From Wenzhouxiangellaceae bacterium (GTDB lineage: Bacteria > Pseudomonadota > Gammaproteobacteria > Xanthomonadales > Wenzhouxiangellaceae), in contig JAGXKW010000006.1 of the NCBI GenBank assembly GCA_018334995.1, forward strand, positions 1 to 64,000: a DNA stretch of 64,000 nt, read 5' to 3'. The notes beneath the pieces were generated by a model, which did no database searches, was not told the DNA's origin, and saw only the letters and a program-made list of their open reading frames with translations. Shown piece by piece: positions 22,988 through 48,869 of this stretch (positions are counted from its first letter, which is position 1; every line of letters begins with the position of its first letter). The translations under genes and the position numbers were made by a program.

Positions 22988-23068
22988 TCCGGTGCCGTGC
23001 CGGCTATTCGATAATTGCAGCCGCCCTTGAAGGGAACCTGTCCATCTGTTGCAGGCAAAGGAGCTGCC

Positions 23069-24664
23069 ATGAGCCACATCATCGACGAGAACGCCCCACC
23101 CGCACCGCATCCGAAGGCGCCCGCACTGCTGATCGGCCTGTTCGTTTCGACATTTCTGCTGCTTCCGATACTGGCTTCGGCCAGCGATTCCGGAAGCGGC
23201 GGTTACATGTTGCCCCAGGCCGAGATCGAGCAGTTCGCCCAGCAAGCCGAAGAAAACGGCGTCGACATCCACGAGCAGGTCTTCGGCGAGCAGCCGTACG
23301 AGGGTACCGCCGACTGTCTGCGCTGCCATGAATCCGAGGGCACCGAAATGCTCGATACCGGCCACTTCAAATGGGCCGGCAAGGTCGAGAACATCGACGG
23401 CCTGGAAGGCATGACCCTGGGCAAGCGCGACCTGATCAACAACTTCTGCGTTGCGGTCGACACCAACGAGGCACGCTGCACGCAGTGCCACGTCGGTTAC
23501 GGCTACGACGACAAGAACTACGATTTCACCAATCCCGAAAACGTCGACTGCCTCGTGTGCCACGACCAGTCCGGAACCTACAAGAAGGCCAAGAAAACGG
23601 CCGGCCTTCCGGACCCGAGCGTGGACCTCAATCGGGTGGCGATGAGCATCGAAGCCGGATCGAAGCCGAAGCGCAAGAACTGCGTCGGTTGCCACGCGTT
23701 TGCCGGCGGCGGCGACAACGTCAAGCACGGCGACATTTCCACCGCCATGCTCGATCCGAGCCGGGACCATGACGTGCACATGGGCGTCGACGGCGCCAAC
23801 TTCTCCTGCGTCGAGTGCCATGCCGCCAATCACGACCCGAAGACCGGTGCGGTCAACCACGGCATCGCCGGCCAGGAGCTGCATTCGGTGCACGAGGGCG
23901 AGATGCGGCAATGCACTGACTGCCACGGCAGCCAGGAAGTCGTCCACCGCGGCACGCCGGTGGAGAACACACTGTTTTTCGACGACTGGCACGAGCGGCT
24001 GGCCTGCGAGACCTGCCATATCCCGGCAATCGCCAAGGAAGTGTCGACCAAGACCGAATGGTACTGGTCCGATGCCGGCCAGGACATCAGCCCGATTCCG
24101 ATCGATCCCGATGGAGGCCGCCCCGCATACGACAAGAAGAAAGGCTCGTTCAATTGGGAACTCGACGTCCGGCCTGTGCTCCGCTGGTACAACGGCAAGT
24201 GGGACCGCAAGGTGGTCGGCGTGACCGACGGCTACGACGAGGTGCCGATTCCGCTGGCGACGCCGCTCGGCGACCGCAGCGATCCCGACGCGATGATCCG
24301 GCCGTTCAAGCTGATGGTCGGCGACCAGCCGGTGGACACGGCCAACAAGATCGTGATGGTGCCGCACCTGTTCGGCAAGAAGACCGGCCCGAACCCGTAC
24401 TGGGGCAAGTTCGACTGGAATCTTGCGCTCGAAGACGGCGCGCTGTATACCGGCCAGCCCTATAGCGGCGAATTCGGTTTCGTCGATACGACGATGCTCC
24501 TGACCGTCAACCACCAGATCGCGCCGGCCGAAGACGCGTTGGGGCAGGGCGGTATCGTCGACGGCTGCATGGACTGCCACGACCCGGGCGGCGAATACGT
24601 CGATTGGGAAGAACTGGGCTGGACCGGAGATCCGCTCAGGGGCGGTACCCATTCACCCGAATGA
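23069..24664 (+). CDS. Octaheme c-type cytochrome, tetrathionate reductase (OTR) family-like
   Basis: Eight CxxCH motifs (CLRCH, CTQCH, CLVCH, CVGCH, CVECH, CTDCH, CETCH, CMDCH); N-terminal signal/anchor. Confidence 0.9.
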   Translation: MSHIIDENAPPAPHPKAPALLIGLFVSTFLLLPILASASDSGSGGYMLPQAEIEQFAQQAEENGVDIHEQVFGEQPYEGTADCLRCHESEGTEMLDTGHFKWAGKVENIDGLEGMTLGKRDLINNFCVAVDTNEARCTQCHVGYGYDDKNYDFTNPENVDCLVCHDQSGTYKKAKKTAGLPDPSVDLNRVAMSIEAGSKPKRKNCVGCHAFAGGGDNVKHGDISTAMLDPSRDHDVHMGVDGANFSCVECHAANHDPKTGAVNHGIAGQELHSVHEGEMRQCTDCHGSQEVVHRGTPVENTLFFDDWHERLACETCHIPAIAKEVSTKTEWYWSDAGQDISPIPIDPDGGRPAYDKKKGSFNWELDVRPVLRWYNGKWDRKVVGVTDGYDEVPIPLATPLGDRSDPDAMIRPFKLMVGDQPVDTANKIVMVPHLFGKKTGPNPYWGKFDWNLALEDGALYTGQPYSGEFGFVDTTMLLTVNHQIAPAEDALGQGGIVDGCMDCHDPGGEYVDWEELGWTGDPLRGGTHSPE

Positions 24665-24813: not shown

Positions 24814-26325
24814 TCAAGCCGATTTGGCCGACCGGCCGGCGCCGGGCGCGGGGGATTGGCAGTATTGCGTCAGGAACCGATCATGTGCGGGTACCTTTCG
24901 AACGCGCTCGGCAATGTCTTTCCCGACGCGCGAAATCATCGCTTTCAGCTGCCCTTCGTCCAGCGTATCCACGACCGGGTGATAGCTTTCCGGCAGAACG
25001 CTCTGACCCACCAGGACCGCGGTCCAGGAAACTTCGGAAAACAGTTCGTCGCCATCACGGAACACATGTCCCTTGCGCGAGAAAAGCTCGATTCTGTGGC
25101 GCAGTGAATCCGGCACTTCCATTTCGCGGCAATCGATCCAGTAGTCGGCATCGGTGCGCCGGTTGGCGTGGTAATGGAGGATGATGAAGTCGCGGATATA
25201 CTCGATTTCGGCCTTGGTCTCGCGATTGTATTGCGCGACCTCGGCCGGCTCGATGCGCTCGCGCGGGAACATCTTGATCAGGCGGATGATGCTGTTCTGG
25301 ATCAAGTGGATGCTGGTCGATTCGAGCGGCTCCAGAAATCCGCTGGCCAGCCCCAGCGCCACGCAGTTGCGGTTCCATTGCTTCAGGCGCCGGCCGGTCC
25401 GGAAACGCAGCGTCCTGGGGTCGGTGATCGGCTGACCCTCGAGGTTGTCGAGGAGCGTTTTCGCGGCCGCGTCTTCATCCATGTAGTCGCTGCAATACAC
25501 CAGCCCGTTGCCGACCCGGTGCTGGAGAGGGATCTTCCACTGCCAGCCGCAGCGGCGCGCCGTCGAGCGCGTATACGGTGGTGCCGGACCCGTCGATTCG
25601 GTCTGGACCGCGATGGCCCGGTCGCTGCGCAGCCAGTGCGACCAGTCTTCCCAGCCGGTATCCAGTGCCTGCTCGATCAGCAGTCCGCGAAAACCGCTGC
25701 AGTCGATGAACAACTCGCCGGGCACCGCGGTCCCGTCTTCCAGGATCACCGATTCGATGAAGCCGGATCCCGGGTGCTGCACGACTTCGACGACCTTGCC
25801 TTCGCGACGGGTCACGCCCATCTGTTCGCCGAGCCGGCGCAACAGCGCCGCATAGCCGGCGGCATCGAAATGATAGGCATAATTGGGTTTTCTGCCGCCG
25901 GTGTCGCCGAATCGATTCGCGCGCGCAAGCGCCGCCTCGAGGCTGAAATCGTCGAGCGCGGCAGTCTCGCCGAGTTGCCTGGCCCGCAGCCAGTAGTGGT
26001 GGAATCGAGCGGCCCAGTTATCCACGCCGTGCGGGGCAAACGGATGAAAGTAGCGTTCACCCAGCGCACCCCAGTTCTCGAATTCAATCCCCAGCTTGAA
26101 CGTACCGTTGACCTCGCGCAGGAAACCCGCCTCGTCGAGTTCGAGCAGAAGATTGAAGTTCCTGATCTGCGGTATCGTGGCCTCGCCGACGCCGACCGTG
26201 CCGATTGCATCGGATTCGATCAGCGTCACGTCCAGCGCGCGCCCGAAGGTCTTGGCCAGCGCGGCCGCCGCCATCCAGCCCGCGGTGCCGCCGCCGACGA
26301 TCACGACTTTGCGGATATTGCTCAT
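24814..26325 (-). CDS. Flavin-dependent tryptophan halogenase family protein
   Basis: VVIVGGGTAGWMAAAAL, GVGEATIPQI, GTFKLGIEFENW (catalytic Lys region), GWQWKIPLQHR (WxWxIP), FLEPLESTSIHLIQ. Confidence 0.95.
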   Translation of the reverse strand: MSNIRKVVIVGGGTAGWMAAAALAKTFGRALDVTLIESDAIGTVGVGEATIPQIRNFNLLLELDEAGFLREVNGTFKLGIEFENWGALGERYFHPFAPHGVDNWAARFHHYWLRARQLGETAALDDFSLEAALARANRFGDTGGRKPNYAYHFDAAGYAALLRRLGEQMGVTRREGKVVEVVQHPGSGFIESVILEDGTAVPGELFIDCSGFRGLLIEQALDTGWEDWSHWLRSDRAIAVQTESTGPAPPYTRSTARRCGWQWKIPLQHRVGNGLVYCSDYMDEDAAAKTLLDNLEGQPITDPRTLRFRTGRRLKQWNRNCVALGLASGFLEPLESTSIHLIQNSIIRLIKMFPRERIEPAEVAQYNRETKAEIEYIRDFIILHYHANRRTDADYWIDCREMEVPDSLRHRIELFSRKGHVFRDGDELFSEVSWTAVLVGQSVLPESYHPVVDTLDEGQLKAMISRVGKDIAERVRKVPAHDRFLTQYCQSPAPGAGRSAKSA

Positions 26326-26353
26326 TGATGTTCCCTTTTCAATGAAGTCACCT

Positions 26354-27364
26354 TCAGCGGTTGAGCCTGTTTCTCAGGAGCATGCGCCACTGTCGAATCA
26401 GGTCGTCGTCCGGCTCGCCGAGAATCCCGCGGCTGTGCTCCGGAATATGGTCCAGGCCATCTTCGGGCGGATCGAATACGTAGTGCTCGAACAGACACCG
26501 CCAGGCCTCGCGCTGGCGCGCCGGAAGATGGCGCAGGTTCACCAGGGCGTGCATCAGCGCATCGCCGGGCGCACCCATGTGTTCGGCGGTATCGCGCCAC
26601 CAGTGATTGATGAGGACATTCAACGGCGACAGGGCATTGACCTGGTGCCACCACATGCTGGGGATGTAGATGGCGTCCCCGGGTTCGAGCTCGGCCCATC
26701 GCGACCGCTCCAGCGCATCGGCGTAGCGCGGAAATTTTTCGAAGTCCGGATCGTCCGGATCGACCAGGCTGACCTGCTGTCCGGCCGGCGTCAGGTCGAT
26801 CGGGCCCAGGTAGAGATTGGCGAGCTGGTCGGGCGGGAACAAGGTGAACTGCCGGACCCCGGCGCACACGCAGGCGATATTGTCCATTACGTCGTGATGC
26901 GCGGCCACCCTGGAGCGATTGCCGATCCATATTCGCACCGTCGCCGCCAGTTCGCCGGTCGGCAGGCTGTTGTCGGGCTTCACGCCGGGCAGGCAATGAT
27001 CCAGCGCCATGGACCCCATGTAGACGGTCGGGGCAGGCGATTGATCGGCCGCTTCCCGGATGCGCGACAGCACCTCGTCCAGGCGCGACCTGACCTGCTG
27101 AAAATTGAGCCCCGAGATGTCATCGTTGTAAAAGATCCTGCCGTCGGCGTCCGAAGGCCCCAGGAACGCGGTGACCGGCGCACCCTCGTAATGAGACAGC
27201 AGGTAGCGCTCTATTTCGGCACGATCGTCCGCGGCCTCGACCAGCGGCCAGCGTGAGCACAGGCCCCGAAAAACCACCGGTTCCGGTTGGCCGTTGGTGG
27301 CAGCCAGGACCTGGTCTGGATCTGCGTCTTCGACCACGGCGATCTTGCTGCCGTATCGGCTCAT
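26354..27364 (-). CDS. Cupin-like (Cupin_8/JmjC-like) domain protein
   Basis: PVVFRGLCSRWPLV, RVAAHHDVMDNIACVCAGVRQFTLFPP, LEPGDAIYIPSMWWHQVNAL. Confidence 0.9.
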   Translation of the reverse strand: MSRYGSKIAVVEDADPDQVLAATNGQPEPVVFRGLCSRWPLVEAADDRAEIERYLLSHYEGAPVTAFLGPSDADGRIFYNDDISGLNFQQVRSRLDEVLSRIREAADQSPAPTVYMGSMALDHCLPGVKPDNSLPTGELAATVRIWIGNRSRVAAHHDVMDNIACVCAGVRQFTLFPPDQLANLYLGPIDLTPAGQQVSLVDPDDPDFEKFPRYADALERSRWAELEPGDAIYIPSMWWHQVNALSPLNVLINHWWRDTAEHMGAPGDALMHALVNLRHLPARQREAWRCLFEHYVFDPPEDGLDHIPEHSRGILGEPDDDLIRQWRMLLRNRLNR

Positions 27365-28098
27365 GAAGCGGCGGCCATCAGGGCGCGGTTCTTGCGCTGG
27401 ATCAGTTTCTCGAGATTCGGCTGCGAGGCCAGCATCATGTAGATGGCGTGCAGAAAGCCGTCTTTGTGCAGCGATTCGAGCGCGGCACCGTTCAGTGCGG
27501 CAAGGCGGGTTTCGTCGATCGTATGGAGTCCTTTCAACAGCTGGCTCGAGCCGTCTTCGAATTTCAGGTCCAGCGACACCGACTCGATCAATTCCATGCC
27601 CACGAGCGTTTGCGAAAACGGCGGGATGGCCTTGTGACCCTCATGAATGGCCATCAGGATCGAGGTCATGCGTTCCAGCCATTCGCTCTCGCCGCCATGC
27701 GGCAGAAACAGCGGCATGCCTTCCGACTCGCTTACGCTTGGATGATCGAGATCGATATGGACGACCGGCTCCTGCGTGGGCACGCCGTCGACGGTCTGTT
27801 CCTGGAAGCCGATCAGCAGTGGCTGGCGTTCCACGCTGTGCGGAAGGTAGTCGGCGTCCCAGCGTCCTTCGTGCAGGTACAGGTTTTCCCGGTCCGAGAA
27901 ACCGAATAGCGCAACGGGTTCGAAATGACCGGTTTCCCGGTTCTTGAACAGGAACAGCGGATATTCGTTCTGCAACACGAGCAATTCGTCGGGAAATACC
28001 CGCGCAATATTCGAGTCGTAGCCGTGGCCCGGGCGAAAGGTCGGTTTCACGCGGAGGTTCTTGTGCGAAACATTGTCCAGCAACACGTGGTTGGTCAT
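27361..28098 (-). CDS. SapC family protein
   Basis: VLLDNVSHKNLRVK, IARVFPDELLVLQNEYPLFLFKN; 4-bp overlap with the cupin gene. Confidence 0.9.
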   Translation of the reverse strand: MTNHVLLDNVSHKNLRVKPTFRPGHGYDSNIARVFPDELLVLQNEYPLFLFKNRETGHFEPVALFGFSDRENLYLHEGRWDADYLPHSVERQPLLIGFQEQTVDGVPTQEPVVHIDLDHPSVSESEGMPLFLPHGGESEWLERMTSILMAIHEGHKAIPPFSQTLVGMELIESVSLDLKFEDGSSQLLKGLHTIDETRLAALNGAALESLHKDGFLHAIYMMLASQPNLEKLIQRKNRALMAAAS

Positions 28099-28130
28099 GG
28101 TGCTCTCCGGGAGAAATATGCGGCCGGCAT

Positions 28131-29702
28131 TCAGCCGGCCACCGACATGCCCTGCTGCGCGATCTGCTCCAGCAAAGCGCGGTGCGAAGGAAGCCTTGCA
28201 AGAAACTGATTGGACATTCGAACATTCCCGTCGAGCAGTTCGCGTGCCCTTTTGAGTTTTGCCTGGTCGGGCCGAATTCGGGTGCGCGCAGATTCCGGAT
28301 TCATGCCGTAGAGGACGTACTGGTAGCTGGCCGCGGAAAAGATTTCGTCGACTTGCGGCAGGTCGGACAGCCCGGGCGGACGAAAGCGCCAGAGTTCGAG
28401 CAGATCCAGCAAGCTGTCCGGAATCGTTGCGCGCGAACGATTTTCGCGCCAGTAATCCGAATTGTCGCGTCGGCTCAGCACATAATGCAGCTTGAGGAAA
28501 TCGATGATGCGGTCCCAGCGATAGCGGAACCTGTCGTTGAAGCGCCGCGCGACGATGTCCATGGTGCTCCGGTTGGCGGGAAGTTCCTCCACGATCATGC
28601 GCGCGGACAGTTCGACCATCACCAGTGCGCTGGCTTCCAGCGGCTCGATGAATCCGGCCGACATGCCGACCGCCACGCAGTTGCGGTGCCAGAAATGTTC
28701 CCGGTACCCGGGTGCAAAGGAAATCTTGCGCGGCGACTGGAGCGATTCCGACGGCGCCCCGACCGATCGCAGGTAGTCTTCGAGGGTCGAGGCGGCATGG
28801 TCATCGTTTTCGTGCCGGCTGGAGTAGACGTAGCCGATGCCGCGCCGTGATACCAGGCCGATGTCCCAGATCCAGCCCGCAGACCGGGCCGTCGAGATCG
28901 TCTGCGACGCGATGGGCACGCCGGATTCGGCATACGGGGCCTGCACGGCGAGCGCGGTGTCGTTGAACAGGACGTCGGATCGGTCGATGAACGGAACGCC
29001 GAAATGATCCCCGAGCAGCATCGAACGCATGCCGGAGCAGTCGACGAAAAGATCGCCTTCCAGGCTGCCGTGAGAGGCGGTCTGCAGCGACGCTATATCG
29101 CCGTTTTCGGCACTGTTGATGCCCGTGATGTGGTCCTGGACATGCCGAACGCCGAGGTTGCGAGTGCAGTGCCCGGTGAGCAGCGCTGCGAATTTGCCCG
29201 CATCCAGGTGATAGGCGTAATTGACCACGCCGGCATATTCCGGTGTCTGCGCCTGCTTGGGGCCGAGTTCTCGATCGCAGATCATGCCCTGCGGGCTGAC
29301 GGCATCGGTGAACGACAAGCCAGGGCATTCCTGAAGCCAGCAGGTGGCCGCTTCGTCGCCGGGATAGCCTGCCGGCGCCGTGAACGGGTGATAGTAGATA
29401 TCTTCGTCGCCGCCGGTGACCCAGTCGACGAAACGCGTGCCCTGTTTGAACGTGGCCGAACACGCATCGAGGAACAGCGATTCGGGAATGCCCAGTTGCT
29501 GCAGCGTAGTGCGCATCGTCGGCCAGGTGCCTTCCCCGACGCCGATGGTGCCGACCCGCGGCGATTCCACGAGCGTGACCTCGACCGCGGCATCGGAACG
29601 GCGCGCATTGCCCGCGGCGATCAGGCCGGCGGTAATCCAGCCGGCACTGCCGCCGCCTACGACAACGACGCGACGGATTGCAATTTCGGTTTCGGCATCC
29701 AT
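28131..29702 (-). CDS. Flavin-dependent tryptophan halogenase family protein, divergent
   Basis: VVVVGGGSAGWITAGLIA, GVGEGTWPTMRTTL, ATFKQGTRFVDW, GWIWDIGL (altered WxWxIP), FIEPLEASALVMVE. Confidence 0.93.
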   Translation of the reverse strand: MDAETEIAIRRVVVVGGGSAGWITAGLIAAGNARRSDAAVEVTLVESPRVGTIGVGEGTWPTMRTTLQQLGIPESLFLDACSATFKQGTRFVDWVTGGDEDIYYHPFTAPAGYPGDEAATCWLQECPGLSFTDAVSPQGMICDRELGPKQAQTPEYAGVVNYAYHLDAGKFAALLTGHCTRNLGVRHVQDHITGINSAENGDIASLQTASHGSLEGDLFVDCSGMRSMLLGDHFGVPFIDRSDVLFNDTALAVQAPYAESGVPIASQTISTARSAGWIWDIGLVSRRGIGYVYSSRHENDDHAASTLEDYLRSVGAPSESLQSPRKISFAPGYREHFWHRNCVAVGMSAGFIEPLEASALVMVELSARMIVEELPANRSTMDIVARRFNDRFRYRWDRIIDFLKLHYVLSRRDNSDYWRENRSRATIPDSLLDLLELWRFRPPGLSDLPQVDEIFSAASYQYVLYGMNPESARTRIRPDQAKLKRARELLDGNVRMSNQFLARLPSHRALLEQIAQQGMSVAG

Positions 29703-29714
29703 GCAAAAGATGAT

Positions 29715-29734
29715 GCCGCTGCAGGGGCAGCGGC
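29715..29734 (-). promoter_or_regulatory. Intercistronic hairpin between TonB receptor and halogenase (GCCGCTGC-agGG-GCAGCGGC)
   Basis: 8-bp perfect inverted repeat with 4-nt loop. Confidence 0.6.
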
Positions 29735-29759
29735 GTCAAGTAAAGGCACTCCAGCGGTT

Positions 29760-32700
29760 TCAGAATCGGTAGCGAACGCCAAAGTTGTATCGAGCGCCGT
29801 ACTGGTTGGCACGGAGCATCTGCTCCGAATACCGGCTGAATATCCGCTGCGTTTCCTTGTTGATGTTCAAACCTTCGACGAAGACCGAGAGATTTTCGTT
29901 GAAGTTGTAGGTCAGGTTGATATCGATCGGAGCGAACGATTCCGTGAACACCGGGGCGCCGAACTGATCGAATCCGCTCAGGAACTCGTCGCGCCAGTTG
30001 TAGGCGACACGGCCCGAAAAGCGCTCGGTTTCGTAGAACAGGACCAGGTTCGCCGTATCGCTCAGGCCCGGCAGGGCAAAGCTCTGGTCGACGACGTTGG
30101 GGTCGGCGTCGACGTCGCCTTCGACCAGCGTCGCGTTTGCCTGGACGCCCCAGCCGCTTCGTCCGAACAGGTGCTGCACGGCAAATTCGAACCCGTACAG
30201 GTCGCCCTCTTCGGCGTTTGTCGTGGTGGTGACGCGGAAGAGCGCCAGCGGATCATCCGGGCTCTGGCGAATCGGCGCGTTCGGTTCGGCACCGCGGATG
30301 GCGTTCATCCGGCGGAATACAGCCGCATTGTCGGGGTTGATTCCTTCGGCGGCCAGTTCCTCACGCGCCTGTTCGGCCAGCGGGCCCAGGAACGGATCGC
30401 GAAGGCCTTCGAAGGTCCGTTCGACCGTGGTCGAAATCAGGAAGTTGTCGACCAGTTTGTTGAAGAAGCCGACTGAAGCGTAGCTGCCTGGTGCGTAATA
30501 CCATTCGAGAGAAAGATCGAAATTGTCCGAGACGAATGGCTGCAGGTCCGGATTGCCCGAGCTTACGCTCTTGCTGCCGATGTTCGGGGCCCCGTCGAAA
30601 CTGCGGTTCGGGCCCAGCGCGCCGATCGGCGGGCGCGAAATCGAACGCGAATACGCCGCACGCGCAATCACGTCGGGTACGACTTCCAGGGCGAAAGCGA
30701 AGCTGGGTAGCCAGAAGTCGCTGCTGCCGGTGCCTCTTCGCAGCTGCGGTTCGCCGACGAAATCGTAAGTGAATTCGTCGCCTCCGACCCAGACGATGGC
30801 CTCGGGCGGCCGTTCCTGGCCGAACGATACGGTCTCGGCCGTTTCCCATCGCAGGCCGACCGACGCGTTGTAAGGCATGCCGTTGAAGGTGTCCTCGAAG
30901 TCGGCCCTCACGTATGCCGCGTCCAGGTCTTCGTTGACGGACGACTGACCGCTGTTGCCCAGTGGTCCCGGCCAGAACAGACCGCGCTCACCGGACGGGT
31001 CCTGGAAGTCTTCGGTCCAGAAATTGGTGTCCGGCCAGTAGCAGCAGGGGAAATTGTCTGCGCCAACGGTCTCGAATCCGTTGATCAGGAAGCCGAGCGG
31101 CGCGGTGAAGAATTGTTCGAAAGCAAAGTCGCCGCCGTTTCCGAAATCGTCGAGCAGGCCGCCGAAGCTGCCTTCGGTGAATGCTTCATCGTCCCAGTAC
31201 TGCGCCGACGTGAGCCAGAATCCGGCCGGCAGGAGGCCTGAAAAGGCGTTGATCTGGTCGAATTCCTGCTCGGTGCGGTCATAGCCGAAACTGATCGAAT
31301 CCAGGGCGCCCCCGGACAGATTGGACCAGGTACCGCCAAGCTGAAGCTGCTTGATGTCGTTGTCGTTGTTGACGTTGAAGGCCTGCCCGAACAGTGATCC
31401 GATGTCCTGGCGCAGGAGCCCTTCCTGCGGGCCGCCGTCGGGTCCGGTGCTTCTGAACGAGACATCGAACAGCGGAACGCCGGCGCCCGGATAACGCACG
31501 GTCTGCCGGTCGATGGCCGCCGTGAACGGGCCGGCGCCGTCGACGAAACCGCACCAGTCGCAGGCGGTGTTGCCGATGATCAGGTTGGCCGAACTGCCTG
31601 GACGCCCGTTGATGTCGCCGCCGCGCAGCTCGGAGGACGAAGCGTGGTAATCCGCCGTGAAAGCAAGGCTGTCGGTGGCCTGGAACTCGACGTTGAAGCC
31701 GATCTGGTTGTTTTCCTTGATCGTGTGGTCGCGGGCGACGTTGGTCGAGAAGTCGCCGCACGCCTGGCTGACCTCGGTCACCGTGCCGTTTTCGTTGATG
31801 GTCGCGTCGATGTTCGGGCATTCGAACCAGACGCCGACGCTGTTGCGGTCGGCTTCCCGTTCGACGCGCGAGTAGGTGTAGTCCAGCGTGGCCGTGATGC
31901 GGTCGGTGGGCGCGAATTGGAGCACCAGTTGGCCGTTGATGCGCTCGCGCTGGAGGTCGCTCCAGCCGTAGCCGATGTTCTGCGGATGCCAGAAGACACC
32001 GTCTGTGCGCTGGTTATTGTTGGTGACGTTTCCAGCTGCAAACGGGTTGTTGATCGCGCCGGCGGTCGCTGCAGTGGCCGGCGACCAATTGGCGACCTCC
32101 GCATTTTCTTCGCGGTTGTCGCGTTCCTGGTATGCGCCGCTCAGAAAGATACCGAATTTGTCGTCGAAGAAGGTCTGGCTGTACAGTCCTTCGATTTCCG
32201 GGGTCACTTCGTCGAGATTGCCGACGTCGGCGTCGGTCGAAGAAGTCTCATGAACGGCCTTGCCGCTGATGACGGCACGAAATCCCGGGCGGTCGAGCGG
32301 ACGTGGCGTCAGAATGTTGACCGTGGCGCCGATGCCGCCGCTGGGCAGCTCGGATTGGGGGGTCTTGTATACATCGACGGCAGAAATGCCCATCGTGGCC
32401 AGGTCGGCAAAATCGAAGGAGCGGCTGCCGGCCGTGGGCATGGACCGGCCGTTCAGCGTGACCAGGTTGAATTCGGGTCCGAGGCCGCGGACTGTGATTT
32501 GCGAACCTTCATTGTTGTTGCGATCGATGGCAACACCGGGAATGCGCTGAAGGGATTCCGCCAGATTCTGATCCGGGAAATCGCCGATGTCCTCGGCCGT
32601 GATTGAATCGACCACGCCGATGGAATTGCGCTTGCGGCCCATTGCCCGCATGACGCTGCCCCGGTAGCCGGTCACGACCATTCGGTCGACTGCGGCTTCG

Positions 32701-32897
32701 TCCTCGACTTCGCGCGGTCCGGCCATTCCTGTGGTTTCGGCCGATTGCCGTTGCGGCTCCTGGTTTCGCTCGTTGGTATCCGACGACTGGCGATCCTGCT
32801 CGTTGTCCTGAGCGAGTGCCGGCATGACGGCGGCGGTATGCAAGGCCATCGCGATACCCGTGGCCAGCGCCGTGCGGCGCAGATTGATTCGTCCCAT
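29760..32897 (-). CDS. TonB-dependent receptor (large, carbohydrate-type)
   Basis: 1045 aa; DFPDQNLAESLQRIPGVAIDR, TVRGLGPEFNLVTLNGR, C-terminal GVRYRF. Confidence 0.96.
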   Translation of the reverse strand: MGRINLRRTALATGIAMALHTAAVMPALAQDNEQDRQSSDTNERNQEPQRQSAETTGMAGPREVEDEAAVDRMVVTGYRGSVMRAMGRKRNSIGVVDSITAEDIGDFPDQNLAESLQRIPGVAIDRNNNEGSQITVRGLGPEFNLVTLNGRSMPTAGSRSFDFADLATMGISAVDVYKTPQSELPSGGIGATVNILTPRPLDRPGFRAVISGKAVHETSSTDADVGNLDEVTPEIEGLYSQTFFDDKFGIFLSGAYQERDNREENAEVANWSPATAATAGAINNPFAAGNVTNNNQRTDGVFWHPQNIGYGWSDLQRERINGQLVLQFAPTDRITATLDYTYSRVEREADRNSVGVWFECPNIDATINENGTVTEVSQACGDFSTNVARDHTIKENNQIGFNVEFQATDSLAFTADYHASSSELRGGDINGRPGSSANLIIGNTACDWCGFVDGAGPFTAAIDRQTVRYPGAGVPLFDVSFRSTGPDGGPQEGLLRQDIGSLFGQAFNVNNDNDIKQLQLGGTWSNLSGGALDSISFGYDRTEQEFDQINAFSGLLPAGFWLTSAQYWDDEAFTEGSFGGLLDDFGNGGDFAFEQFFTAPLGFLINGFETVGADNFPCCYWPDTNFWTEDFQDPSGERGLFWPGPLGNSGQSSVNEDLDAAYVRADFEDTFNGMPYNASVGLRWETAETVSFGQERPPEAIVWVGGDEFTYDFVGEPQLRRGTGSSDFWLPSFAFALEVVPDVIARAAYSRSISRPPIGALGPNRSFDGAPNIGSKSVSSGNPDLQPFVSDNFDLSLEWYYAPGSYASVGFFNKLVDNFLISTTVERTFEGLRDPFLGPLAEQAREELAAEGINPDNAAVFRRMNAIRGAEPNAPIRQSPDDPLALFRVTTTTNAEEGDLYGFEFAVQHLFGRSGWGVQANATLVEGDVDADPNVVDQSFALPGLSDTANLVLFYETERFSGRVAYNWRDEFLSGFDQFGAPVFTESFAPIDINLTYNFNENLSVFVEGLNINKETQRIFSRYSEQMLRANQYGARYNFGVRYRF

Positions 32898-32987: not shown

Positions 32988-33001
32988 TGACAGCGCTGAC
33001 A
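32988..33001. promoter_or_regulatory. Candidate LacI-family operator TGACAGCGCTGACA
   Basis: Shared with 36832-36845; palindromic CAGCGCTG core upstream of the TonB receptor. Confidence 0.7.
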
Positions 33002-33113: not shown

Positions 33114-35612
33114 CTATCGAGGGCAGCGCAGCGTCGCGGTGTCTGCGGCGCCGGGCTCGATCTGGACATCGGCGAAACTCAGTTCCAGCGGTTCGCCGGT
33201 TGCCAGCGTGAAGATCCGGGTGACCCGAGCCAGATCGGCCCCGGCCTCGGCAAAGCACCCCAGGTCAACGCCGATTCGTTGCCAGCGCCCGGTTTCCCAT
33301 GCCTCCATTGCGGGCGCCAGGGCGACGCCTCCGCTGCAGGATTCGCCGCATTCGATCGCGAGTGCCAGGTCGTCCGGCGCTTCGGCTTCCAGCCGCAGAT
33401 CGAATGCCAGCGCCGCGCCTCGCTCCAGCAGGCCGGACAGGTCCTGCGGCGCTGGCGCCGCCAAAGCGAGCGCGGCCGGGCCTTCGCCCGTCCAGATCGC
33501 GCGTCGCGCATCCCCCTGCAGGTGACGATCGGTCGGTTCGATGCGCAACGCGTCGGTTCCGCCGGACTGCCCGTCGAGTACGACTTCGGGCACGCCCCGC
33601 TGGTGCAAAACCAGGCGCCACGGCGCCCGGGCCGCGCCGTCGAACGCTGCCATTGTCGACGCGTTCTCGGCGGCGTCGACCCCTGGCGTCAGGCCGGTTT
33701 CAGGCAGCCGTGGCAGGTCCGGGCCCTCACCGTATTCCAGCCCGTGGCCGAAGTCGAACAGTACGGCGATTTCTCCGTCGGGCCCGGCTTCAGGCTCGGC
33801 CGGCCAGGCGAACGGCAGCCTGCCGGTGGGCTGGAAACGCGGGCCTCCGTTGCCGTCGCCCAGCACGACGTCGGCAACGCCGCCGCCCTCGGTGCCCGGC
33901 AGCCAGGCGGCCACGAATGCGTCGGACTGGTTGATTTCCGGGTTGACCCACAACGGTCGCCCGGACAGAAAGACGGTCACGACCGGCGCCTCGAGGCGGG
34001 CGAGCCGCTTGAGCAATGCCAGGTCGGATTTGGCCCCGGACTGGTATTCGAGCGTGGTTCGATCGCCGCGGCCCTCGGCATAGGGATCTTCGCCGATGAC
34101 CGCAATCACCGCATCGGGCGCGAAGTCGTCCGCGCCGGATTCGCCCCGGTGCACCTTTCCACCCGCGGCGGCGACCTGTTCGGCAATGCCCTCGTGAATC
34201 GACTGGCCGCGCGGAAAGCTTTCGTTGATGCCGGTCACGCCCTGCCAGTCCAGGGTCCAGCCGCCGGATTGCTTGCCGATGTCGTCGGCGCCCTCGCCGA
34301 CGACCAGGATGCGTCCGCGCGGATCGATCGGCAGGGCCCGGCCGTTGTTCTTGAGCAGGACCAGCGATTGCCGGACGGCACGCCGGGCCAGCTGCGCGTG
34401 GGCCTCGGGATCGGGCAGAGCACGCCCGCCCTCGATGCGGCGGTCGAACAGGCCGGCGCGTTTCTTGACCCGCAGGATCCTGCGGACCGCATCGTCGAGA
34501 CGTTCCAGCGACAGGCGACCGTTGCGGGCATGCGCGATCATGTTCGTGCGGAATTCGCGCCAGGCCTCGGGCACCATGAACATGTCCACCCCGGCTTCCA
34601 GCGCTTCCACGCAGTCGGTGACGGTGCAGCCGGGCAGCTGCCCGTGTCCGTTCCAGTCACCGACCACGAACCCGTCGAAACCCATCCGGCCCTTCAGTGC
34701 GTCGGTCAGCAGGTAGCGGTGGCCGTGCATCTTTTTGCCGTTCCAGGACGAAAACGAGGCCATCACGGTTTGCGCGCCCGCCTCCAGGGCGGCCTCGTAC
34801 GGGTACCCGTGAATGGCAACCAGGTCGCGCTCGTTCAATTGCGTATCGCCCTGGTCGATCCCGTCACGGGTACCGCCGTCGGCGACGAAATGTTTGGCCG
34901 TGGCCAGCACCCGGCCCGGCGCCAGCCAGTCGCCGTCCATTGATCCCTGGAGGCCGATGACGGCCGCGCGGCCCAGTGCGCTGACCAGTTCCGGATCGCT
35001 GGAGAAGCTCTCGTAGGTACGACCCCAGCGCAGGTCGCGGGCCACTGCCAGCGTCGGCGCGAAGTTCCAGTCGATGCCGGTCGCCGCCACCTCGGCCGCC
35101 GTGGCGCGAGCGATGGCTTCGACCAGGCTGGCGTCGCGCGCGGCGCCGAGCCCGATGTTGTGTGGAAAAACGGTCGCGCCGCGGACGTTGCTGTGCCCGT
35201 GGACCGCGTCGGTACCCCACAGCAGCGGAATCGCGGGACGCCCCTCGGGTCCGGGCTGCAGCGCTGCGGCGTGGAAATCGGCAGCGAGTTCGGACCAGGC
35301 CGCGACGGGGGCTTCGCGATCGCGTCCGGGGAAGGAGCCGCCGCCGTTGAGTACCGAGCCGAGCCCGAATTCATGAACCTCTTCGGGCGTCACGTACTGG
35401 ATTTCGGCCTGGATGATCTGGCCGATCTTGTGCTCCAGCGTCATGCGCTCGAGCAACGCTTCGACGAAGGCTTCGACTTCCGGGTCCTGTTGCGCTTCCA
35501 GGTGCGGCCAGTGCTGCGGGTCGGCGGCCCGGGCGCAAAGGCCGGAAACCATGAGCATTGCGGCTGCGGCAAGACGCGGCAGGCCGCTCGAAATTCGGTC
35601 GACGTGATTCAT
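33114..35612 (-). CDS. Glycoside hydrolase family 3 (exo-beta-glucosidase)
   Basis: LLWGTDAVHGHSNVRGATVFPHNIGLGAARD, GFDGFVVGDWNGHGQ (nucleophile), signal peptide; start at MNHVDRIS. Confidence 0.95.
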   Translation of the reverse strand: MNHVDRISSGLPRLAAAAMLMVSGLCARAADPQHWPHLEAQQDPEVEAFVEALLERMTLEHKIGQIIQAEIQYVTPEEVHEFGLGSVLNGGGSFPGRDREAPVAAWSELAADFHAAALQPGPEGRPAIPLLWGTDAVHGHSNVRGATVFPHNIGLGAARDASLVEAIARATAAEVAATGIDWNFAPTLAVARDLRWGRTYESFSSDPELVSALGRAAVIGLQGSMDGDWLAPGRVLATAKHFVADGGTRDGIDQGDTQLNERDLVAIHGYPYEAALEAGAQTVMASFSSWNGKKMHGHRYLLTDALKGRMGFDGFVVGDWNGHGQLPGCTVTDCVEALEAGVDMFMVPEAWREFRTNMIAHARNGRLSLERLDDAVRRILRVKKRAGLFDRRIEGGRALPDPEAHAQLARRAVRQSLVLLKNNGRALPIDPRGRILVVGEGADDIGKQSGGWTLDWQGVTGINESFPRGQSIHEGIAEQVAAAGGKVHRGESGADDFAPDAVIAVIGEDPYAEGRGDRTTLEYQSGAKSDLALLKRLARLEAPVVTVFLSGRPLWVNPEINQSDAFVAAWLPGTEGGGVADVVLGDGNGGPRFQPTGRLPFAWPAEPEAGPDGEIAVLFDFGHGLEYGEGPDLPRLPETGLTPGVDAAENASTMAAFDGAARAPWRLVLHQRGVPEVVLDGQSGGTDALRIEPTDRHLQGDARRAIWTGEGPAALALAAPAPQDLSGLLERGAALAFDLRLEAEAPDDLALAIECGESCSGGVALAPAMEAWETGRWQRIGVDLGCFAEAGADLARVTRIFTLATGEPLELSFADVQIEPGAADTATLRCPR

Positions 35613-35646
35613 TGCAACCCCGTGATGACAGGTGGGCCGATCAGGC

Positions 35647-36729
35647 TCAATCGGGTGGCGGCGCGGTCGTGGCGCGCTCGACAAGCGGCGCGTCGAAAAC
35701 CTCCACGCGCGAACCGAGACGTTTACTCCCCGCATGGCCGTGGATGTCCAGGTTTTCGTGCAGGTTTTCGGCCAGGTTCTCCAGCAGAAGTTCGGTGGCG
35801 CGCAACGCCATGTGGCGGATCGGCTGATGGACGGTGGTCAGCGGCGGCCACAGCGTTCGTGAAAGCGGCGTGTCGTCGAACCCGGCGATGGACAGCTGTT
35901 CGGGAATGCGCCAGCCACGCTCCAGCGCGACCTGCAAGAGTCCCGCCGCCATTTCGTCGTTGCTGGCGAAGATTGCGGTGGGCGGGTTCTCCATGTCGAG
36001 AAAATAGGCCCCGGCCCGGCGCCCGGATTCCAGGTCAAATCTGCCTCCCACGACCAGTTCCCTTTCGAAATCCAGGTCCTTGCGCAGCAGCCCCAGGCGA
36101 TAGCCTTCGAGCCGGCTCTGGGTGGCGCCGTGCTCCGGATGCCCGCTGATGAAGCCGATTCGCCGGTGCCCCAGGCCGGTCAGGTGGGCGACCACCTGGG
36201 CCGAGGCATGCCGGTCATCGACTGAAACGCCCAGGCCCGGCCGGCCATCCAGCGGCGATACGCGGGCGTAGGGCAGGCCGATCGCTTCCAGTGCATCCAG
36301 TACCGCGACGACGTCGCCGACCGGTGGAATCAGGAGCAAGCCGTCGACGCGCGACTGGGAAACGAAACGCGTGACGCTTTCGGCAAGATCCGGTTCGTCG
36401 GGATTCGGAGCCTGCAGCGAAAGCGCGTAACCGGCTCCGTTGCACGCCTCCAGCACGCCGGTGATCGTGCGAAACAGGTAGTTCGGGCTGGGATTGTCGT
36501 AGATCAGGCCGATCATGCGCGACTGGGTCCCGGCCAGCCCGCGGGCCGACGGGTTGGGCGAGTAATCCAGCGCCCGCACGGCGGCCTCCACCCGGGCGCG
36601 CGTCGACGGGCGGACGCTCGGCTCGTTGTTCAGCACCCGCGAGACGGTCTTGATCGAAACCCCCGAGCGTTCGGCCACGTCGTTGATCGTGATCCTGCCG
36701 GTGGTCGGCCGCTGTCTTTTCTGATGCAT
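35647..36729 (-). CDS. LacI family transcriptional regulator
   Basis: TINDVAERSGVSIKTVSRVLNNEPSVRPSTRARVEAAV HTH; sugar-binding domain; start at MHQKRQRP. Confidence 0.95.
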   Translation of the reverse strand: MHQKRQRPTTGRITINDVAERSGVSIKTVSRVLNNEPSVRPSTRARVEAAVRALDYSPNPSARGLAGTQSRMIGLIYDNPSPNYLFRTITGVLEACNGAGYALSLQAPNPDEPDLAESVTRFVSQSRVDGLLLIPPVGDVVAVLDALEAIGLPYARVSPLDGRPGLGVSVDDRHASAQVVAHLTGLGHRRIGFISGHPEHGATQSRLEGYRLGLLRKDLDFERELVVGGRFDLESGRRAGAYFLDMENPPTAIFASNDEMAAGLLQVALERGWRIPEQLSIAGFDDTPLSRTLWPPLTTVHQPIRHMALRATELLLENLAENLHENLDIHGHAGSKRLGSRVEVFDAPLVERATTAPPPD

Positions 36730-36831
36730 CACCCGCAATTCCGGATTGGGTTGTGGACAGGCATATCGTCGGGGAACGAAGTGACGTTGCCGCCCTCCGC
36801 GCAAGACGCATCAGTCGATGATAATTCAAAA

Positions 36832-36845
36832 TGACAGCGCTAACA
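36832..36845. promoter_or_regulatory. Candidate LacI-family operator TGACAGCGCTAACA
   Basis: 13/14 identical to the site at 32988; upstream of the LacI gene. Confidence 0.7.
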
Positions 36846-36906: not shown

Positions 36907-38397
36907 TTATCCATGGGATGGCTGGTACTGGGCGTCTCGGGACAGATCCTCGAGCGTTCGTCCCTTGGTTTCTTGCACGAACTTTCTGACGAAGACGTAG
37001 GCGATCAACCCGAACGTGGCGTAAATGCCGTACGAGAAGCCGAGCCCGATACTCGCCAGCATGATCGGGAACGTCATGGTGATCAGGAAGTTCGAACCCC
37101 ATTGCACCAGCCCGCAAAACGCAAGCGCGGCGCCGCGAAACTGGTTCGGGAACATCTCGCCCAGCATGACCCACATGACCGGGCCCCATGAGAATGCGAA
37201 AAACGCGATATAGGCATTGGCCGCCAGCAGGGCATAAAGGCCTTTGTTTCCTTCGAGCAGCAGGTCGCCGCTCGCGTCTACGCCGGCCGTGCCGAAAAGT
37301 ATTGCAAGCACACCAAGCATCACGGCCTGACCCAGCGCTCCTGCAAGCAACAGTGGCTTCCGTCCGACCTTGTCGACAAGCGCTATGGCCACAAAGGTAA
37401 AGATGACATTGACCGAGCCGCTGATCACGTTCTGCAAGAGCGCGTTCTCTTCGGTGAAGCCGGCCGCCTGCCAGAGTGTGGCGCCGTAATAGAACACGAC
37501 ATTGATGCCGGTGAACTGCTGCAATGCCGCCAGTCCGACGCCCACCAGGACAATGGGATGGATGCGGCCCGTGTATTTATTGACGATGTCGCTCAGGCTG
37601 GGCTTGCTGCCTTCGATCAGCGTCGATTTGATGTCATTTACCTTTGCCTGTGCATCAACGGTATCGGACAGCTTCTGAAGAACACCCCTGGCCTTGTCCA
37701 GTTTGCCGACTGCGACAAGATAACGCGGCGATTCCGGAATGAAGAAAAGGGCAATCAAAAAGATGGAAGCCGGAATGATCTCCATCCAGAACATCCATTG
37801 GTATGTTTGAAAACCGCCCCAGAGCACTGCGCTGGCGCTGCCCGAAATGCCGGCCAGCCAGTAATTGCTGATGAACGCGGTAAAAAGTCCGATCACGATC
37901 ATCAGCTGCTGCAGCGTTGCCAGGCGTCCCCGGATCCTTGGTGGCGCAATCTCGCTGATATACGCCGGAGCCAGAATGCTTGCGGCACCGACCGCGAAGC
38001 CGCCGAGAATGCGGGCAAAGACAAACTGAAGGGAATCTGCCGCTATGCCCGAACCCCACGCACTTGCGATGAACGCGATCGCCGTCATCATCATGACCGG
38101 TTTTCGGCCGATCCTGTCGGCAAGGTTTCCGGCAAAAAAGGCACCTGCGGCACAGCCCAGCAGCATCGAAGCCACATTGAAGCCGGTGCCGACGGCATCG
38201 GAATCGAAGGCGAGCTGCAGGGCTTGCACCGTACCGTTGATGACGCCACTGTCGAAGCCGAACAGGAAACCGCCGATCGCAGCGACGACGGACAGGAACA
38301 AAACCCGTCCTATATTCCCGGCACCTTCAATCGCTGTTTCGTTTGCTTCTTTCATGTCTGCCCCCTGGTTGGATTCATGATTCATGCTGATCGGCAT
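36907..38397 (-). CDS. MFS sugar porter (sugar:H+ symporter family)
   Basis: GGFLFGFDSGVINGT, NLADRIGRKPVMM, PESPRYLV, internal duplication typical of sugar porters. Confidence 0.95.
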   Translation of the reverse strand: MPISMNHESNQGADMKEANETAIEGAGNIGRVLFLSVVAAIGGFLFGFDSGVINGTVQALQLAFDSDAVGTGFNVASMLLGCAAGAFFAGNLADRIGRKPVMMMTAIAFIASAWGSGIAADSLQFVFARILGGFAVGAASILAPAYISEIAPPRIRGRLATLQQLMIVIGLFTAFISNYWLAGISGSASAVLWGGFQTYQWMFWMEIIPASIFLIALFFIPESPRYLVAVGKLDKARGVLQKLSDTVDAQAKVNDIKSTLIEGSKPSLSDIVNKYTGRIHPIVLVGVGLAALQQFTGINVVFYYGATLWQAAGFTEENALLQNVISGSVNVIFTFVAIALVDKVGRKPLLLAGALGQAVMLGVLAILFGTAGVDASGDLLLEGNKGLYALLAANAYIAFFAFSWGPVMWVMLGEMFPNQFRGAALAFCGLVQWGSNFLITMTFPIMLASIGLGFSYGIYATFGLIAYVFVRKFVQETKGRTLEDLSRDAQYQPSHG

Positions 38398-39806: not shown

Positions 39807-41477
39807 TCACTGCAGCATGGCGAGAAGTTCGGAGTTGGTCACCGCTGCGTCGAGCATGAAGACGGCGACGCCGTGCGCGGGGACCTCGTGGACCAGCGTT
39901 TGTCCGGGCACGATGTCGATGGTTTCTTCGTCAAGTGCCGAGCGCCAGGTCCCGGCTTGCAGGCCGCTAGCGATCTCGAACGTTTCGGGCGCATCGCCCT
40001 TGTTGAGCATCACCAGCACGATCTGACGGATGTCTTCGTGCTGGAAGACGCGGTAGAACGCGGCCCGATGGCCTTCCAGTTCGAGCATCAGCTGCACGCC
40101 TTTCTGCAGCGCGACGGACTCGGCGCGAATGGTGGCGATGCGTCGCAGGCTTTCCCGGATCGGATTCCCGCGGGCCTGTTCGATGCGGTCCCGGCCGAAG
40201 TAATTGCGGTTGCCGGCGTGCTCGGCGCGGCCGCGCATGAAACCGGTCTCGGAGCCGTAGTAGACCACGGGGATGCCGCGTGCAGTGAACAGCCAGTTGT
40301 TGGCGTCGATGAAACCGGAGTCGCTGGCGTCGATTCTGGCCATGTCGTGGTTGTCGTAGAAGGTCGCCAGTTCGTAGGCATTGTGGTACGGGTTGTCTTC
40401 CAGCATCAGCGCATCGGCCAGCTCGGCATAGTCTGAATCGGGGTTCTCGAAGACCTCCTGCATGGTCCGGCGCATGGGAAAGTCGAGCACGCTGACGCCG
40501 CCGTTTTCCGGCAGCGTGTGCTCGGCGATCACCGCCGGGTCGTAGTCGAAGGCCTCGGCGAACATGAAGAAGCCGGGATGTTCGGCACGGATGCGGTCGG
40601 TGACCGTCTTCCAGAACCGGTGCGGGGCATATGGGATCGTGTCGATGCGGAAGGCGTCGGCGCCCTGGTCGATCCAGTGCAGGTAGGCCTCGACCAGGTA
40701 ATCGACCACGTCCGGGTTGTCGGTATCGAAATCGGCCAGCTGGGCAAGCCCCGGCTCGTTGTTGTACCAGGCGTGGCGCGGATCCCCTTGCGGGTCGAGC
40801 TCGGCCGGCGGCAGGTTGCCGTGGTCGGCCAGCAGTTCTCCATCGGCCGAGAACACCTGGCCGAAGCCGGGCTGTTTTTCGGGCATGGTCCAGCCGGGCG
40901 AGGAATGGTTGCCGACGATGTCCAGCACCAGTTTCAGGCCGTTGTCTTCCAGCACCCGATCGAGGTCGGAGAAGTCCATGTCCGGGCTCGGCAGGTGTTC
41001 GTCGAGTGAAAGGAAATTCGTGCCCCAGTAGCCGTGGTAGCCGGTCTTGCCGTGATCGGTGAGCACGCTGTCGCAGGAGATTTCGTCGCCGCCGGTGAAC
41101 GCCTGGTTCGGGTTGTCGACTACCGGCGTGATCCAGACCGCGCCGAAGCCCATCTCTGCGATATACGCGGCGTTGTCGGCCAGGCCTCTGAAATCGCCGC
41201 CGAGGTAACCGATATTGGCCGTCACCCCGTCGCATTCGGGCAGCGGGATGTCGAACGTCCGGTATTCGCCGCCCTGGTCGGGCTGATCGTTGGTCTCGTC
41301 GCCGTTGACGAAGCGGTCGGTGACGACGAAATACACTGAGCGCTCGGCAAACGGCTCCAGCGTGCCGTAAAGGCTCGGCGCTCCGCTTTCACCCGATTCC
41401 GATTCCACTTTCCGCGAGCCCGGTGTTTCGTTCGTGCATCCGGTGAACACCAGGAGCAGCGAAATCGCGCATGACAT
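39807..41477 (-). CDS. Alpha-amylase family (GH13) lipoprotein
   Basis: MSCAISLLLVFTGC lipobox; YFVVTDRFVNGD, DIVGNHSS, DAFRIDTIPY, FYDNHDM; upstream MNADERRWI is repeat-derived so start moved to 41477. Confidence 0.9.
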   Translation of the reverse strand: MSCAISLLLVFTGCTNETPGSRKVESESGESGAPSLYGTLEPFAERSVYFVVTDRFVNGDETNDQPDQGGEYRTFDIPLPECDGVTANIGYLGGDFRGLADNAAYIAEMGFGAVWITPVVDNPNQAFTGGDEISCDSVLTDHGKTGYHGYWGTNFLSLDEHLPSPDMDFSDLDRVLEDNGLKLVLDIVGNHSSPGWTMPEKQPGFGQVFSADGELLADHGNLPPAELDPQGDPRHAWYNNEPGLAQLADFDTDNPDVVDYLVEAYLHWIDQGADAFRIDTIPYAPHRFWKTVTDRIRAEHPGFFMFAEAFDYDPAVIAEHTLPENGGVSVLDFPMRRTMQEVFENPDSDYAELADALMLEDNPYHNAYELATFYDNHDMARIDASDSGFIDANNWLFTARGIPVVYYGSETGFMRGRAEHAGNRNYFGRDRIEQARGNPIRESLRRIATIRAESVALQKGVQLMLELEGHRAAFYRVFQHEDIRQIVLVMLNKGDAPETFEIASGLQAGTWRSALDEETIDIVPGQTLVHEVPAHGVAVFMLDAAVTNSELLAMLQ

Positions 41478-41479
41478 TA

Positions 41480-41510
41480 TCCATCTGCGTTCATCTGCGT
41501 TCATCCGGGG
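41480..41510. repeat. Short-period repeat element (ATCTGCGTTC)n, 10-bp period
   Basis: tccatctgcgttcatctgcgttcatccgggg. Confidence 0.8.
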
Positions 41511-47058: not shown

Positions 47059-47126
47059 GGCGCAAAACGTGCGCCCGGGGTTGCGATCGAAGCTTCGAGG
47101 AATGAAGATTGCAGAAAACGAAAGCA

Positions 47127-47164
47127 CGTCGTTTCGAAACGACGGAACGACGAGACGACGAAAC
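47127..47164. repeat. 18-bp perfect palindrome CGTCGTTTCGAAACGACG followed by (GACGACGA) 8-bp-period repeats
   Basis: cgtcgtttcgaaacgacggaacgacgagacgacgaaac immediately upstream of the ATG. Confidence 0.8.
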
Positions 47165-48682: not shown

Positions 48683-48869
48683 ATTCAGCCTGGATTCGAC
48701 TCGATTGCAAGTTCAACTTCAAAAGCGGTTTCGCCTTTGGCTTTGGAATTTGGATCGTGGATAAAAAGATAGTCTCTCACATCTCGCCGGCGTGCCAAAC
48801 CAGGGCGCAGGCCGAAGCCGACTTTGCCCGGCTGCCAGCAAGCACCCGACCGGCCGGGTAAACGCGAAC

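Follow-up and report, generated by a model that had tools for sequence, protein, structure and literature searches.

Behind a predicted carbohydrate receptor of a Wenzhouxiangellaceae bacterium lie genes for two halogenase-family flavoproteins, a SapC-family protein and a cupin, and with the receptor gene they make up an operon that is real, widely conserved and travels with its receptor. We propose, at about an even probability, that these four genes form a protein-modification module that is dedicated to the receptor and acts in the cytoplasm before export. The proposal is based on gene content, gene order, the tracking of receptor and module, catalytic residues, independence of the sugar and operator-like sites; from these we infer the substrate (the receptor), the chemistry (bromination, chlorination or hydroxylation), the role of SapC, the timing and the residues concerned. 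Coordinates refer to the window, the whole 64,000-nucleotide stretch of DNA that was analysed, except where a locus label (L and a number) precedes them.

The five open reading frames run along the minus strand from 32897 to 24814, with intergenic gaps, 5′ to 3′ along the operon, of 57, 32, −4 (an overlap of 4) and 28 bp; an earlier note on this DNA had these ends, strand and gaps right to the base, and the operon-like spacing that it pointed out is confirmed. The leading gene encodes a TonB-dependent receptor of 1,045 amino acids (29760–32897) that matches TIGR01782, the Xanthomonas/Caulobacter carbohydrate type, with 599 bits against an NCBIfam cut-off of 310, from residue 70 to 1045 and over the whole model. 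By inspection it carries a signal peptide and a Ton-box-like DRMVVTG; the same inspection reveals no evident signal peptide for SapC or the enzymes. Next come FDH-A (28131–29702), a flavin-dependent halogenase family protein whose nearest solved structure is 2PYX; a SapC family protein of 245 amino acids (27361–28098); a Cupin_8 protein (26354–27364) related to the FIH/JMJD5 protein hydroxylases; and FDH-B (24814–26325), another member of the flavin-dependent halogenase family, which is of the Xcc4156/BrvH type. The identities assigned in the earlier note all agree with Pfam scores far above cut-off: 631 and 392 bits for the two halogenases (Trp_halogenase, PF04820), 201 bits over the full length for SapC (PF07277; cut-off 28.9 bits) and 234 bits for Cupin_8. 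Just beyond the 3′ end of the operon, on the plus strand, lies a gene for a multihaem cytochrome c-like protein (23015–24664).

Upstream on the same strand are genes for an ExoP-type GH3 exo-beta-glucosidase directly adjoining the receptor gene (33114–35735; Glyco_hydro_3 and Exop_C in Pfam/NCBIfam), a LacI-family regulator (35647–36804) and an MFS sugar porter (36907–38397; TIGR00879 in Pfam/NCBIfam). These neighbours and the TIGR01782 match bear out the earlier description of the receptor as carbohydrate-type, and the GH3, LacI and MFS genes suggest that it may import a carbohydrate. For TGNNARCGYTNNCA, which we take to be the LacI-type operator consensus, the 64 kb hold two matches where 0.2 are expected, and none of 100 shuffles gave two. 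One operator-like palindrome, TGTCAGCGCTGTCA (32988–33001, minus strand), lies some 90 bp ahead of the start of the receptor gene and the other, TGTTAGCGCTGTCA (36832–36845, minus strand), just upstream of the LacI gene; the stricter TGNCANCGNTGNCA has only three sites in the genome. The LacI protein is likely a local repressor and, because the palindromes at the receptor and at its own gene match, it may control the receptor–halogenase operon in response to sugar. The locus thus contains everything that defines a TonB-type carbohydrate-utilisation locus: TonB-dependent receptor, GH3 enzyme, MFS sugar porter, LacI regulator and shared operator-like sites.

All four halogenases and the single SapC gene of the 2.98-Mb genome are inside the window, where the earlier note was silent on two further halogenases and a second TIGR01782 receptor. 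This receptor (50476–53358, minus strand; NCBIfam) is linked to halogenases only: the third halogenase (48870–50396, minus strand; Pfam) is directly downstream of it, and the fourth (47069–48682, plus strand; Pfam match 47195–48568) is convergent with the third. No SapC or cupin gene is found at this halogenase locus (47069–50396). GH13 genes (39807–41504, 43079–44950 and 53609–55288) and a GH97 glycosidase gene (44947–46977, minus strand; Pfam), an alpha-glucan locus marker, identify the surroundings by sequence as an alpha-glucan locus, which also has MFS and LacI genes.

When loci of up to 20 kb were taken around 80 SapC genes, these proved to be of two kinds, standalone and inside receptor operons. 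In the operons the order is fixed and on one strand (receptor, FDH-A where present, SapC, Cupin_8, FDH-B) at 27 of 27 first-surveyed receptors of the clade, 13 with FDH-A and 14 lacking it, and annotated chromid copies in Sphingobium and Sphingomonas confirm it. Because the same-strand order recurs in all of these, the arrangement is not a product of chance, and the earlier claim that the set recurs beside TonB receptors in other proteobacteria holds. A receptor-centred profile search of 398 genomes, with a profile built mainly from module-linked receptors, found 60 clade receptors, 44 of them with SapC within 4 kb at a median gap of 215 bp; chance would give about 0.007 per receptor and less than one over all 60. 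Of the 16 receptors that lack a nearby SapC, two precede an FDH pair and the remaining 14 or so stand without either gene; in one genome that has such a module-free receptor, no FDH turned up at E 1e-30. As far as these sequences tell, a clade receptor can therefore do without the module.

The module itself varies. Partial or rearranged forms occur in Catenovulum, Niveispirillum, Novosphingobium and Pseudoalteromonas, and a receptor–SapC–FDH–FDH variant adjoins GH20 chitobiase genes (L082, L085 and L112; in L078 SapC is convergent); Shewanella chitin/GlcNAc loci presumably carry such genes as well. The cupin is missing from the GH20-linked set and SapC from FDH-only loci. By our own count, a TonB receptor lies no more than about 5 kb from about 34 of 47 halogenase loci in 61 relatives, and several of the others adjoin GH97, GH13 or pullulanase genes. 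Cupin_8 matches, where strong, are also mostly found beside receptors or halogenases. The viral contigs searched yielded no relative. At one locus the second halogenase after the receptor is split by a frameshift, with SapC and the cupin missing, perhaps a decaying module (L213:11642–13130). Another has a halogenase with two upstream receptors of OMP_b-brl_4 / CarboxypepD_reg type, apparently outside TIGR01782 (L143:9114–17126), and Pseudoalteromonas chromids (L203, L205–L209) bear clade receptors that have no halogenase, SapC or cupin nearby and lie directly downstream of GH16 where annotated.

What stays constant across these loci is the receptor. The neighbouring enzymes differ from locus to locus: GH3/GH16 (beta-1,3-glucan type), GH94, GH20 (chitin/GlcNAc), GH43/GH115/xylanase, alpha- and beta-galactosidase, and agarase. 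Because they point to unrelated sugars, the common factor is, on the gene content, the receptor and not the sugar, which makes an aryl glycoside, one target offered in the earlier note, less likely. Operons that are paralogues within a genome (L041/L042, L044/L045 and L038/L039) have only 33–57% identity between corresponding genes. In the window operon and in L039, L042, L044 and L045, the nearest relatives of the receptor, SapC, the cupin and FDH-B lie together in a single foreign operon; L041 nearly agrees and L038 is mixed. Over all operon pairs, identity correlates with that of the receptor moderately for SapC (Spearman 0.58) and FDH-B (0.46) and weakly for the cupin (0.27) and FDH-A (0.15). 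For the most part, modules thus accompany their own receptor, one module per receptor, as they should if it is the receptor that they serve. Of the earlier proposal that the enzymes act with the receptor, what stands is that the set is linked to the receptor, and modification of the receptor has indirect support.

Shared regulation and joint transfer could by themselves bring these genes together around no shared target, as would fit the LacI-type palindromes that precede both the operon and the LacI gene, and the several operon copies on chromids, but strict order and very short gaps maintained over deep divergence, together with the mutual tracking of module and receptor, leave this explanation very little probability. 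Alternatively, the enzymes might work on a small molecule, which could be indole, an aromatic group of the glycan taken up, or a halogenated compound produced for signalling or defence in the presence of the sugar. BrvH and the Xanthomonas enzymes are able to brominate indole, as the free compound, and its derivatives in vitro, yet with low activity on indole, and their authors doubt that it is the natural substrate; they do not accept Trp, their active site is open, and peptide substrates have been suggested (PMC5945002, PMC7336383). The operon has no biosynthetic or export genes, and the module occurs with loci for unrelated sugars. We regard a small-molecule substrate as distinctly unlikely.

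The catalytic residues of the proposed receptor-modifying module are intact. GxGxxG and the catalytic Lys and Glu are present in FDH-A and FDH-B (K77/E335 of FDH-B and the equivalents), and alignment shows that Lys and Glu are kept in every halogenase of the SapC operons. The WxWxIP motif reads GWQWKIP in FDH-B and GWIWDIG in FDH-A. Both proteins are by sequence members of the halogenase family, with halogenation as their predicted activity. The HxD...H iron triad of the JmjC-type barrel (H156, D158 and H240 here) is kept in 38 of 38 aligned Cupin_8 copies, and by analogy with its relatives the protein would hydroxylate a protein residue. Several multi-halogenase clusters pair an intact enzyme with one that has lost Lys and Glu (L151:8434–9933, L152:9979–11490, L153:10716–13007, L154:9090–10607, L155:9228–10775 and L102:2278–3786), the latter possibly pseudo-enzyme partners.

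A variant of this chemistry is suggested by QhpG, a halogenase-like flavoprotein that dihydroxylates peptidyl Trp in a partner protein (PMC7876137). If the flavoproteins were peptidyl Trp/Tyr hydroxylases of this type in vivo, the receptor or another exported protein would be oxidised and not halogenated. The IP of WxWxIP is missing in many FDH-A-type enzymes, an FIH-like hydroxylase is encoded alongside, and FDH-A has a QhpG match of 36.5 bits (E 2.5e-9), although this is far below the NCBIfam cut-off of 240; with FDH-B at 19.8 bits, neither protein is a member, and both may work like QhpG all the same. Against oxidation stand the retention of the halogenation Lys and Glu and the bromination carried out in vitro by FDH-B-type relatives, and we see only a slim chance that it is the in vivo reaction.

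For SapC, no solved relative was found by sequence, the predicted model is poor (pLDDT 55) and gave no match in a Foldseek search, and the literature yielded no assigned function for the family. Standalone SapC genes often adjoin giant open reading frames (more than 2,600 amino acids up to the locus edge; Gly/Thr/Asp-rich and nearly Cys-free), with HlyD, TolC-like, TpsB or SecA-like genes beside them. Open reading frames of at least 2,000 amino acids lie within 2.5 kb of 12 of 52 standalone SapC genes, 0 of 30 operon SapC genes and 0 of 60 control loci that were halogenase- or receptor-centred, not random (Fisher p 5e-5). Eight standalone loci (L055, L060, L062, L064, L065, L067, L072 and L103) place SapC by giant secreted-type open reading frames or TPS exoproteins with T1SS/two-partner secretion genes; some of the HlyD proteins at such loci have a GAF domain, and a SecA-like protein of 660 amino acids is encoded directly downstream of one standalone SapC (L053:10466–12448). 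Exported surface proteins thus appear to be the common factor of standalone and operon SapC.

Because SapC adjoins giant exported-type proteins, its client need not be the receptor. The module might modify another surface component (an outer-membrane lipoprotein, a surface glycan or a secreted protein) or the TonB/ExbBD partner, a step required in any cell that expresses receptors of this kind, and the roughly 14 of 60 clade receptors that lack the module fit this account. A shared target, however, would not need modules that are duplicated and that mostly track single receptors per genome, and no other gene class is always present; we judge such a target unlikely.

Within the receptor, Trp357, Trp561 and Trp703 were weighed as candidate targets. 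They are invariant in 27 of 27 first-surveyed linked clade receptors and less common elsewhere, and a model of low confidence (pLDDT 39, read only for its alternation of short and long turns) puts all three in long turns, the kind that faces the outside of the cell in TonB receptors. Co-variation looked decisive when the module-free L173 proved to have none of the three while keeping most other clade residues, but Trp357 and Trp703 persist in Pseudoalteromonas chromid receptors that have no module nearby. A W[FYLM] motif at 357, defined post hoc and therefore a candidate only, occurs in 38 of 39 SapC-linked and 4 of 55 other receptors; this association comes down to about four independent switches, a tree-based sign test is not significant, and other clade-signature residues associate with the module equally well. 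The halogenase-linked receptors as a whole share no Trp, the receptor loops are not enriched in Trp, and the three Trps may equally serve sugar binding. The earlier suggestion of a modified Trp on the receptor thus keeps the invariance in its favour and loses the co-variation.

Against the module reading as a whole count the roughly 14 module-free receptors, the Trps kept in Pseudoalteromonas, the want of a Trp shared by linked receptors, the coming and going of parts and the weak correlation of cupin and FDH-A with the receptor. If the module does serve the receptor, SapC would bind the newly made, unfolded precursor in the cytoplasm or pass it to the enzymes; the targets of FDH-A and FDH-B would be aromatic side chains, to be halogenated or oxidised, and the FIH-like Cupin_8 enzyme would add a hydroxyl group to a residue. 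The precursor would then be exported and fold in the outer membrane, its modified residues most likely in long surface loops, where they could tune ligand capture, stability, or phage or toxin recognition. A broader version, that many proteobacterial sugar receptors are halogenated or hydroxylated before export by a cis-encoded module and that SapC is a general handler presenting unfolded exported clients (receptors, giant T1SS/TPS proteins) to modifying enzymes, is more tentative and on balance doubtful. In the limited library searched we found no report of halogenation, hydroxylation or SapC binding for any module member, and no paper that treats a halogenase and SapC together with a TonB receptor.

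Xcc4156/BrvH-type halogenases have been crystallised and have no known native substrate, and the operon points to the cognate receptor as one testable substrate. Were the receptor the substrate, SapC could be assigned to the handling of exported proteins, a new level of control would be added to nutrient uptake and perhaps to phage recognition, and the loci would be a source of protein-halogenating enzymes.

TonB receptors inside carbohydrate-utilisation (CUT) loci are familiar from Xanthomonas and Caulobacter, and there, as here, a TIGR01782 receptor stands with a glycosidase, a LacI regulator and an MFS transporter; the halogenase/SapC/cupin module is the extra element of the window locus. 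FDH-A aligns end to end with 2PYX (545 bits), which we take to be a Shewanella frigidimarina halogenase-like protein, and both have WxWxIG; the entries of the solved relatives 2PYX, 9LTB and 9LU2 are titled only tryptophan halogenases. The word 'halogenase' is absent from the text of the CUT-locus paper (PMC1790865), and the Xcc4156 and BrvH papers mention neither TonB nor SapC (PMC7336383, PMC5945002). FDH-B aligns end to end with Xcc4156 (PDB 6Y1W, 592 bits) and BrvH (PDB 6FRL, 472 bits) and shares their catalytic Lys, Glu and WxWxIP; those enzymes were examined singly with model indoles, whereas FDH-B belongs to a receptor operon. Of the solved structures, FIH (factor inhibiting HIF) comes nearest to the Cupin_8 protein, which is also related to JMJD5 and shares with these hydroxylases the HxD...H iron site and the LFPPDQ and PGD..YIP..WWH motifs, with Arg, in our alignment, at the position of FIH's 2OG-binding Lys; unlike them it is bacterial and sits in a receptor operon, and its activity is predicted. 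The halogenase relatives, FIH and QhpG are, by analogy, precedents and not proof for the proposed chemistry. The maturases QhpG, LodB and GoxB are flavoproteins that act on Trp inside a partner protein, as proposed here; they serve tryptophylquinone enzymes, whereas this operon matches them only distantly in sequence and holds no quinone enzyme.
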